Part shown: positions 14,096-17,566 of the stretch, in pieces
Numbering within the stretch: the stretch's first letter is position 1
How the letters are laid out: each line of letters starts with the position of its first letter
From: an uncultured Bacilli bacterium
Lineage (GTDB): Bacteria; Bacillota_I; Bacilli_A; RF39; UBA660
Reading direction: 5' to 3'
Length of the DNA stretch: 36,239 bases
NCBI GenBank assembly: GCA_944350315.1
Contig: CALVON010000012.1
Span: forward strand, 1-36,239
Notes under the pieces: generated by a model
The model's database searches: none
What the model saw: only the letters and a program-made list of their open reading frames with translations
Told to the model about the DNA's origin: nothing
Made by a program: the position numbers and the translations under genes

Positions 14096-14124
14096 TTGCA
14101 AAACAAACAAATTTATGTTATTAT
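14096..14124 (+). promoter_or_regulatory. Promoter of a short structured RNA
   Basis: TTGCAA (14096-14101), a 17-bp spacer and TATTAT (14119-14124) would start transcription near 14131, exactly before a GAAA-tetraloop hairpin. Confidence 0.5.
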
Positions 14125-14130
14125 GTATAT

Positions 14131-14243
14131 AGATGAAGGAAACTTCATACAATATTAAAAGGAACATTCAATATTCGCATGTTGAGTGTTGCCATATATA
14201 ATGGAAATCACCTAAATCATTGCTGAGTTAGGTGATTCTTTTA
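14131..14243 (+). ncRNA. Candidate antisense antitoxin RNA (type I toxin-antitoxin)
   Basis: This short transcript of about 110 nt has no credible reading frame. It would fold into a 5' hairpin ATGAAG-GAAA-CTTCAT (14133-14148), a middle hairpin AACATTCAA/TTGAGTGTT (14163-14190) and a terminator AATCACCTAA/TTAGGTGATT (14206-14237) followed by CTTTT. Its 3' end meets the 3' end of the hydrophobic-peptide gene on the other strand. The peptide mRNA would run on through this locus until the middle hairpin, which has a TTTT tract on the minus strand, giving roughly 80 nt of perfect complementarity. This is the txpA/ratA-type arrangement. Confidence 0.5.
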
Positions 14244-14324
14244 ATTTAAAGTTACAAATAGTAAACCTATAAGTAAAAGGATAATGATAATCAATGATGA
14301 GATTAAAAAATCTTTCTTTGACAT
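14241..14324 (-). CDS. Small hydrophobic peptide, candidate type I toxin
   Basis: This 27-residue peptide has a charged start (MSKKDF) and then an almost uninterrupted hydrophobic helix (LISSLIIIILLLIGLLFV), ending TLN. It is preceded by AAGGAGGTGATAAG, an 11-base perfect match to the 16S anti-Shine-Dalgarno, seven bases from ATG, and by its own TATAAT promoter. CTCTTTT upstream can pair with AAAAGGAAG beside the RBS, which may restrain translation. Size, composition and the convergent short RNA match membrane toxins of type I toxin-antitoxin systems, though it matches no named family that I recognise. A free-standing membrane microprotein is the alternative. Confidence 0.55.
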   Translation of the reverse strand: MSKKDFLISSLIIIILLLIGLLFVTLN

Positions 14325-14385
14325 CTTATCACCTCCTTCCTTTTAGAAAAGAGGCATCACCCAACTATTAAATGTTCCTAAATTT

Positions 14386-14413
14386 ATTATAGCAACAAAT
14401 GTATTTCAATCAA
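14386..14413 (-). promoter_or_regulatory. Promoter of the small hydrophobic peptide gene
   Basis: On the minus strand, TTGATT (14413-14408), a 16-bp spacer and consensus TATAAT (14391-14386) give a leader of about 55 nt before the ATG at 14324. Confidence 0.65.
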
Positions 14414-15272: not shown

Positions 15273-15362
15273 AGCATCCTCCTTTCATAAACCATTTTAA
15301 ATTGTTTTGTAAAATTACTCTACCATTTTTCAGTGGAAGTATCGCCCATTTTCATAACATTT

Positions 15363-15392
15363 AAAAAGCATCGTTGTTTGATGCTTCTATTT
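15363..15392 (-). terminator. Terminator of the lipoprotein gene (copy A of a repeated hairpin)
   Basis: AAGCATC (15366-15372) and GATGCTT (15380-15386) with flanking A and T tracts form a bidirectional terminator. Nearly the same hairpin recurs at 16370-16390 and, degraded, at 17429-17447, each behind a minus-strand gene. Confidence 0.75.
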
Positions 15393-16289
15393 TTAATTCA
15401 TTCTATGTAATAAAATCTCATTGCCTTCTGAATCAATTCCATATAAATTCTTAGCAACATCATAATCAAATAGCGGTACCAATTTAAATGAAACAATGTT
15501 TTCGGCATTTAATTTGGTATATTTCATGTTAAATGTAAAAAAGTAATTACAATCTTCATCTGACATATAAACATTACCATTTGAAGTTAATATTAATAAA
15601 TGGCCATTTGCAGCACAGCATATAGGTCTTACTGCAATATTTTTAACCGGCTCTTTATCAAATACTATTTTTTCCTCATTTGTTTTTAAGTTTTTTGCAT
15701 ATAATTTATTATTCTTTATATAAACATTATAATCAACAAGTCCATCTTCCCAATTAATGTATTGTCCATTATCATCTATTGATGATTTAAATTTTAATTC
15801 AGTTTTTAATTCAATTTCTTCAGTTGTTGCTTTTTCATATTCATAGTCATCTTCATTTATTTCAAATTCAGCATAAACATTAAAGCTAACAATATTGCTA
15901 TCATGTAACTCGGAATCAGTTTTTTCAAAAATTTCTTTTACTATTCTATATTTACCACTTTTTAACTGACCATATCCATATGCCCAATTAATACTAAATT
16001 CTACTGATTTTCCAGACTCTAATCCATAAGCAGGCAAATTAAATACAACATCATAAATCGTTTGAACTTTACTCCAATTTCCATCAATTTCTTGCTCTAT
16101 GTAATAAGGTTCTCCGTATGAGTAATCAGTATTTGATTCATTTTTTAATATCAATGTAACACCAATAGGAGCCAAAGTACCTTCTTTAACTGTTAAACTT
16201 ACTTTGTTATCAACTCTCTCATTTTTACATCCAGTTAATCCTAATAATAAAATTCCACAAAACAAAATTCCTAATAAATTCTTTTTCAT
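15393..16289 (-). CDS. Lipoprotein with N-terminal Ig-like domain
   Basis: The signal peptide is MKKNLLGILFCGILLLG, followed by lipobox LTGC, so the mature protein would be lipid-anchored at Cys21 on the outer face of the membrane. Residues 30-130 (LTLILKNES-like strand VTLILKNES, then GNWSKVQTI, LESGKSVEFSINW, LKSGKYRIVKEI) match the bacterial Ig-like domain common in small Bacillota lipoproteins. The C-terminal half (about 165-298) has short beta repeats (DYNVYIKNNKLYAKNLKT, LLILTSNGNVYMSDEDC), suggesting a partial propeller. The start ATG has AGAAGGGAG upstream. Its promoter lies in the repeat at 16329-16394. Ligand and role are unknown. Confidence 0.8.
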   Translation of the reverse strand: MKKNLLGILFCGILLLGLTGCKNERVDNKVSLTVKEGTLAPIGVTLILKNESNTDYSYGEPYYIEQEIDGNWSKVQTIYDVVFNLPAYGLESGKSVEFSINWAYGYGQLKSGKYRIVKEIFEKTDSELHDSNIVSFNVYAEFEINEDDYEYEKATTEEIELKTELKFKSSIDDNGQYINWEDGLVDYNVYIKNNKLYAKNLKTNEEKIVFDKEPVKNIAVRPICCAANGHLLILTSNGNVYMSDEDCNYFFTFNMKYTKLNAENIVSFKLVPLFDYDVAKNLYGIDSEGNEILLHRMN

Positions 16290-16328
16290 TTTTACTCCCT
16301 TCTATAACATAAAGTATAATTCTATTGT

Positions 16329-16394
16329 CACTTTCATTATATCATATTATTTTTTTCTTGCAAAGTAAAAAGCATCGATGTTTGATGCTTCTAT
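16329..16394 (-). repeat. Intergenic promoter-terminator repeat, copy B
   Basis: This 66-bp unit is about 80% identical by eye to 17386-17451. On the minus strand it carries the terminator of the gene to its right (AAGCATC/GATGCTT) and then a promoter for the gene to its left: TTGCAA (16363-16358), a 16-bp spacer and TATAAT (16341-16336). Confidence 0.7.
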
Positions 16395-16899
16395 GTTTTT
16401 TGATTTTTAAAATTAAAATAAATAAAACCAATTATTAAAGGTATAATAAATAAATATAATCTTTTCCATTCAGGTTTGTAATAAAAACCCAATTCTTTTT
16501 CAATAGTTAATGCTTTATCTCTTAATGACTTAGGAACATCAACATATAAAATTTTTTCTTTATATAAAGTTAATGATTTATATCGATCACCACTTGTTGA
16601 ATTATTATAAAACTTAACTCCTAAATTTATATTAATGTTTGAACTACCAGTAATGTTTTCGTTATCTTTTACACTGCTAACATATAAATTATATTCATTT
16701 TTATGTTATTTTTATTCTCTATGTACTTAATATTATAATTACAATTACTAGTTTCATTTTCATCATTTACTTCGCAACCATAATCGCTCATTAAATTAAC
16801 AAACTCATTCAATGATAAAACTTGATTAGTAGGAATTAAAACAAAGTACAATACTAACAATGTGCTTAAAATTAATATTACTAATAAAATTTTCTTCAT
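16391..16899 (-). pseudogene. Frameshifted small membrane protein gene
   Basis: From ATG at 16899 the frame encodes an N-terminal membrane helix (MKKILLVILILSTLLVLYF) and then LNEFVNLMSDYGCEVNDEN. It terminates early at MLAV (16669). In the next frame the protein continues naturally as NEYNLYVSSVKDNENITGS and ends with a second hydrophobic helix (YLFIIPLIIGFIYF) and NFKNQKT. One missing A in the A5 run at 16698-16702 explains the break; restoring it gives about 169 residues with an N-terminal and a C-terminal membrane helix. It follows the 17371 gene by about 16 bp. It may be a true lesion or a homopolymer sequencing error. The family was not recognised. Confidence 0.6.
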
Positions 16900-17371: not shown

Positions 17372-17385
17372 AGTTTCCCTACTTT

Positions 17386-17451
17386 CACTTTCATTATACC
17401 ACATTGTTTTCCAGCTGCAAAGTAAAAAACATCGATGTGCGATGCTTCTAT
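17386..17451 (-). repeat. Intergenic promoter-terminator repeat, copy C
   Basis: Counterpart of 16329-16394: on the minus strand a weakened GATGC-type hairpin, then TTGCAG, a 16-bp spacer and TATAAT, in front of the 17371 gene. The shared borders on both sides of a two-gene unit suggest that the unit was duplicated or inserted by recombination between such repeats. Confidence 0.7.
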
Positions 17452-17455
17452 TTAT

Positions 17456-17566
17456 TTACTTACAATAATTTTCTTCGTATTCTAGAGTTTCATCTCCAAA
17501 ATACACATCTTTATTCTCATCTAATATATTACACAAAAGCATTCTATAATTATCTTTTTTGTACAT
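17456..17566 (-). pseudogene. C-terminal gene fragment
   Basis: A 36-residue frame (MYKKDNYRMLLCNILDEN, then ending TLEYEENYCK) has no ribosome binding site and stops directly before repeat copy C, in the position of a gene end. It reads like the tail of a lost protein-coding gene. The 135 bases upstream (17567-17701) show no gene. Confidence 0.35.

Follow-up and report, generated by a model that had tools for sequence, protein, structure and literature searches.

The window, a stretch of 36,239 nucleotides (contig CALVON010000012.1) from an uncultured Bacilli bacterium, contains a cassette that we interpret, with a probability of roughly 0.8, as a member of a new, lineage-specific, multicopy family of type I toxin–antitoxin loci. 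A minus-strand mRNA would encode a single-helix membrane peptide of 27 residues, presumed to be toxic by analogy with known systems, in which peptides of this kind damage the membrane, and a convergent plus-strand RNA would be its antitoxin; the terms toxin and antitoxin denote roles assigned from the sequence. Two points make the cassette distinctive: a conserved RNA scheme is combined with several divergent toxin types, and a single hairpin is reused for three jobs.

Organization of the locus

The features of the cassette are listed in Table 1. The initial annotation had described a tiny peptide gene with a perfect 11-base Shine-Dalgarno (SD) sequence and its own TATAAT promoter, facing an RNA with its own promoter, a GAAA-tetraloop hairpin and a terminator. 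All of these features were present; the strands had to be corrected, to minus for the peptide gene and to plus for the RNA. Three parts had been overlooked: the hairpin H2, its copy in the toxin leader, and a hairpin that would hide the SD sequence. The two RNAs overlap at the 3′ end of the mRNA, as proposed, with perfect complementarity from 14157 to 14245; the length is about 89 nt and not about 80. Taken alone, the promoter matches were near chance (8 found vs 5.7 expected). Both are credible because they are conserved across copies, not on the basis of match statistics.

Table 1 Features of the cassette in the window
Feature	Position	Strand	Remarks
Antitoxin promoter, TTGCAA-17-TATTAT, extended −10 (TG)	14096-14124	+	TTG..TATnATGTATATAG kept across copies
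Antitoxin RNA (predicted), about 115 nt	14131-14245	+	From fold and covariance model; ends predicted
H1, 5′-terminal hairpin ATGAAG-GAAA-CTTCAT, GAAA tetraloop	14133-14148	+	Near-invariant
Toxin mRNA terminator U-tract	14153-14160	−	Complement of the conserved AATAAAAAA preceding H2
H2, antitoxin hairpin	14161-14193		On the minus strand, putative terminator hairpin of the toxin mRNA and 3′ pairing partner of its leader
Antitoxin terminator hairpin	14206-14237	+	T-rich tail 14238-14245
Toxin-like peptide ORF, 27 aa plus stop	14241-14324	−	ATG 14324-14322, stop 14243-14241
Shine-Dalgarno sequence AAGGAGGTGAT, 11 nt	14338-14328	−	SD also in homologues
SD-sequestering hairpin CCUCUUUUCU / AGGAAGGAGG	14331-14355	−	Predicted fold
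Toxin mRNA 5′ leader, copy of H2	14353-14379	−	Inverted repeat in DNA; predicted to pair with the 3′ end of its own mRNA
Toxin mRNA (predicted full length), about 225 nt	14379 to about 14153-14155	−	From promoter to H2/U-tract; ends predicted
Toxin promoter, TTGATT-16-TATAAT	14413-14386	−	

The putative antitoxin RNA

The antitoxin RNA folded at −37.7 kcal/mol (z −6.2), better than all 200 shuffles, and its H2 stem showed covariation at 9 of 9 pairs. Compensatory variants of H1 (GTCAAG-GAAA-CTTGCA) and GCAA loops were present in copies found with a covariance model; these variants were read from an alignment fitted to the model, and in copies found by pattern H1 is invariant by construction. 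Across dozens of genera the H1 sequence was nearly invariant, well beyond the needs of pairing; a role in protein binding or in 5′ stability is possible. No Rfam covariance model matched the RNA at gathering score. At the sequence level, its covariation and its conserved promoter and terminator mark the antitoxin as a separate RNA gene on the strand opposite the toxin, complementary to the toxin mRNA.

The peptide

The peptide in the window, MSKKDFLISSLIIIILLLIGLLFVTLN, is a single hydrophobic helix of 27 residues, in agreement with the initial annotation. Peptides across copies were diverse and shared only their hydrophobicity, always in the form of one hydrophobic helix. A short hydrophobic peptide was found behind an SD sequence at the expected place in 97 of the 124 distinct pattern-found copies, and about a dozen more had a weaker SD before the peptide. 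Most of 20 held-out copies found with the model also had a peptide of the same families. Conservation of the peptide and its ribosome binding site in relatives had been named as a test of the locus, and both were kept.

A recognizable peptide was absent in roughly 15 of the 124 antitoxin-like copies. Antitoxin-like copies of this kind include L006, L022, L030, L041, L103 and L138; they might be decayed loci or orphan RNAs, possibly acting in trans.

Substitutions in the ORF, pooled over 147 pairs of related and thus non-independent copies, gave a pN/pS of 0.32 (pS 0.43, pN 0.14), which indicates that the peptide ORF is under purifying selection. On this selection, on the recurrence of the cassette in relatives, and on the retention of the peptide and SD sequence, we conclude that the cassette is not due to chance.

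Seven representative peptides had no match in Pfam, NCBIfam or PADLOC, and none matched the profile of TxpA/Hol_Tox or another curated toxin family. The earlier impression that the peptide lies outside known families thus held in the family databases searched. The PDB contained no entry matching the peptide or the RNA.

Terminators of the two RNAs

Among 115 copies, the terminator hairpin had a T-rich tail on the plus strand in 74% and on the minus strand in 1%. For H2 the pattern was reversed: at least 5 T in the 8 bases after the hairpin were found on the minus strand in 90% and on the plus strand in 12%. These strand-specific tails indicate that the antitoxin stops at the terminator hairpin and that the toxin mRNA reads through it and stops at H2. 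By this comparison the terminators are nested, not common to both RNAs, and the convergent, 3′-overlapping RNAs with separate terminators have the txpA/ratA-type layout that had been suggested for the window. One bidirectional terminator common to both RNAs is contradicted by T-rich tails on one strand only.

The same data bear on whether the cassette belongs to the Fst/par group, in which case the convergent RNAs would have one bidirectional terminator in common and the repeats would be a second pairing region. The Enterococcus Fst/par system as described in PMC7472228 has one bidirectional terminator and direct repeats. The cassette resembles it in its convergent promoters, its small hydrophobic peptide (about 30 residues), its SD-sequestering hairpin, and a second element that is repeated in both RNAs. 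The differences are that its terminators are nested and one-way, that its repeats are inverted, with no direct repeats found, and that the seven peptides lacked a Pfam or NCBIfam match and showed no Fst motif. We regard membership in this group as having a very nearly negligible probability.

Leader and SD hairpin of the putative toxin mRNA

The full toxin mRNA had a fold z of −8.7, beyond that of the antitoxin RNA. Its leader is a same-sense copy of H2. The leader scored 32.9 against its own H2, compared with 18.5 against the H2 of other clusters and 16.9 against shuffles (95 copies). Substitutions from H2 to leader were counted over related, non-independent copies: there were 188 of A to G (113) or C to T (75), and 30 of G to A (18) or T to C (12). 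The first bias was found in 24 of 28 clusters and the opposite bias in 2, a cluster count that corrects only partially for relatedness. The direction of substitution is the one that G-U pairs would tolerate in a leader paired with the complement of H2, which is the mRNA's own 3′ end.

At positions where H2 itself has G-U pairs, the leader retained G in 118 of 122 cases and T (U) in 123 of 130; pairing in cis with the 3′ end therefore fits, and pairing with the other arm of H2 in the antitoxin is disfavored. Such pairing in trans would also permit G to A and T to C changes at these positions, and these were seldom seen. RNAduplex energies for the leader against the antitoxin H2 were weakly cognate-specific (cognate −15.7 vs −14.2); the same-sense comparison and the direction of substitution are more telling than these energies. 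In mRNA folds, at least 8 pairs between leader and 3′ end were predicted for 73 of 86 copies, compared with 18% of controls with shuffled leaders. The comparison supports a lock in which the 5′ leader would pair with the mRNA's own 3′ terminator hairpin.

The unpaired probability of the SD sequence was 0.26, vs 0.42 with shuffled upstream sequence (86 copies). This comparison likewise supports a predicted local hairpin that hides the SD sequence.

Distribution and genomic setting

The host organisms form a large uncultured group from gut and rumen and are known as metagenome-assembled genomes (MAGs). Searched at the DNA level, 5 of 7 genomes in the genus carried the cassette: a single detectable copy is present in the window's own genome, and four sister genomes have 3 to 11 copies. 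Of the 145 genomes sampled from the family, 95 were positive with covariance model R1, built on the antitoxin 5′ region; they contained 470 copies in all, with a median of 4 and a maximum of 20 per positive genome. The window's family accounted for 21 of the 22 positive genomes in a sample of the class, and for all 4 positive genomes in a sample of the phylum. A scan with ATGTATNNNNATGAAGGAAACTTCATA, one genome per species, found at least 119 stretches; the matches listed were all, by title, uncultured Bacilli, Erysipelotrichales, Tenericutes or similar MAG records. A single copy with a peptide (L160) was found in a genome of another family in the class (G318), which suggests transfer or else misbinning or contamination.

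Tandem arrays of two or three cassettes were present at L067, L071, L077, L081, L093, L094, L109, L115 and L122, with the cassettes mostly 350–510 nt apart.

Scattered and tandem copies in such numbers might be expected of a dispersed selfish repeat, in which the hairpins would be signals for recombination or transposition and the ORF would be incidental. This reading is very unlikely given the synonymous bias in the ORF and the conservation of the SD sequence and promoters. In addition, neither terminal repeats nor a transposase is tied to the cassette, and its position is conserved: the genus search found an orthologous copy in the same neighborhood of a sister genome (G002), where the cassette is 96% identical and the flanking gene 79%.

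Genes flanking the copies were mostly housekeeping genes, including those for ribosomal proteins, ClpP, pyruvate kinase and Mn catalase. Searches of plasmids and phages gave no match, and viral contigs had no match to the exact H1 pattern. This setting, among housekeeping genes and apart from mobile elements, would suit a small membrane protein that is not toxic and acts in regulation or stress, the antisense RNA only adjusting its level. As many as 20 copies whose peptides diverge widely do not look like a dedicated cellular function, and silencing in three layers fits a product whose leaky expression has to be prevented. We consider such a protein improbable, although less so than a selfish repeat, and prefer a toxin–antitoxin locus.

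Other elements lie near the cassette in the window. The segment 14440-14513 ends in a strong plus-strand terminator, GGGGTTTGG...CTAACCCCTAGGCGGGGTTAG followed by T8, and is possibly a small RNA. Within a longer match, it still aligns with the G002 orthologue; searched alone in 20 relatives, it gave no match at E ≤ 0.001. A 79-nt repeat with a terminator-like hairpin occurs at 15318-15396, 16322-16400 and 17379-17457, about 1 kb apart. The tmRNA gene (Rfam RF00023, 12625-12973) is 1.1 kb from the locus and adjoins small uncharacterized genes.

Discussion

In the mechanism we propose, the full-length mRNA would be doubly locked, by the hairpin over its SD sequence and by its 5′ leader on its own 3′ terminator hairpin. 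The plus-strand RNA would bind the last ~89 nt of the mRNA, and RNase III, whose gene is encoded in the genome, presumably cuts the duplex as in txpA/RatA. Because they have the same sequence, the antitoxin H2 and the toxin leader would compete for the mRNA 3′ end. Translation of the peptide would be limited to mRNA that is free of the antitoxin and no longer locked at its 3′ end, perhaps after 3′ trimming of the kind that activates AapA3 (PMC6733600).

We propose tentatively, at odds somewhat below even, that a single hairpin is the antitoxin domain, the toxin mRNA terminator, and the template copied into the leader, the mRNA thus carrying a mimic of its antitoxin. This would be a new type I design that has diversified into many toxin types, and its uncultured hosts, with their small genomes, would be among the most type-I-TA-rich known. 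A literature search, made largely outside subscription journals, found no description of the cassette family.

The nearest functional model is provided by the B. subtilis systems txpA/RatA, bsrG/SR4, bsrE/SR5 and yonT/SR6, in which an antisense RNA lies over the 3′ end of a membrane-toxin mRNA, RNase III acts on the duplex, and, in bsrG, a structure sequesters the SD sequence (PMC6562991). The cassette is like them in its 3′ overlap, its small membrane peptide and, as in bsrG, its predicted SD structure. Unlike those toxins, its peptides are unrelated to them by profile search and are shorter than YonT (58 aa). TxpA is also longer than the cassette peptides. The cassette differs further in its conserved 5′ GNRA hairpin, its many copies per genome, its uncultured lineage, and a toxin leader that copies an antitoxin hairpin and would pair with the mRNA 3′ end.

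Helicobacter AapA/IsoA systems have a long-distance 5′-3′ lock of the full-length mRNA, local SD hairpins and several chromosomal copies (PMC6733600). The cassette mRNA is like those of AapA/IsoA and hok/Sok in its 5′-3′ lock and SD hairpin, both predicted here by comparison. Unlike hok/Sok, where complementarity is in the 5′ region, the cassette antisense RNA overlaps the mRNA 3′ end; unlike AapA and hok, the cassette leader, itself without an SD sequence, would pair with the terminator hairpin.

Type I systems have been described in few phyla, and the tiny size of their peptides and RNAs makes them difficult to detect (PMC12390103). Here one covariance model retrieves copies by the hundred from a large lineage of uncultured bacteria. 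The co-varying sets of leader, H2 and terminator are a natural series for testing RNA recognition and toxin specificity, and the question of why as many as 20 of these modules are retained in genomes of about 1.2 Mb becomes testable.
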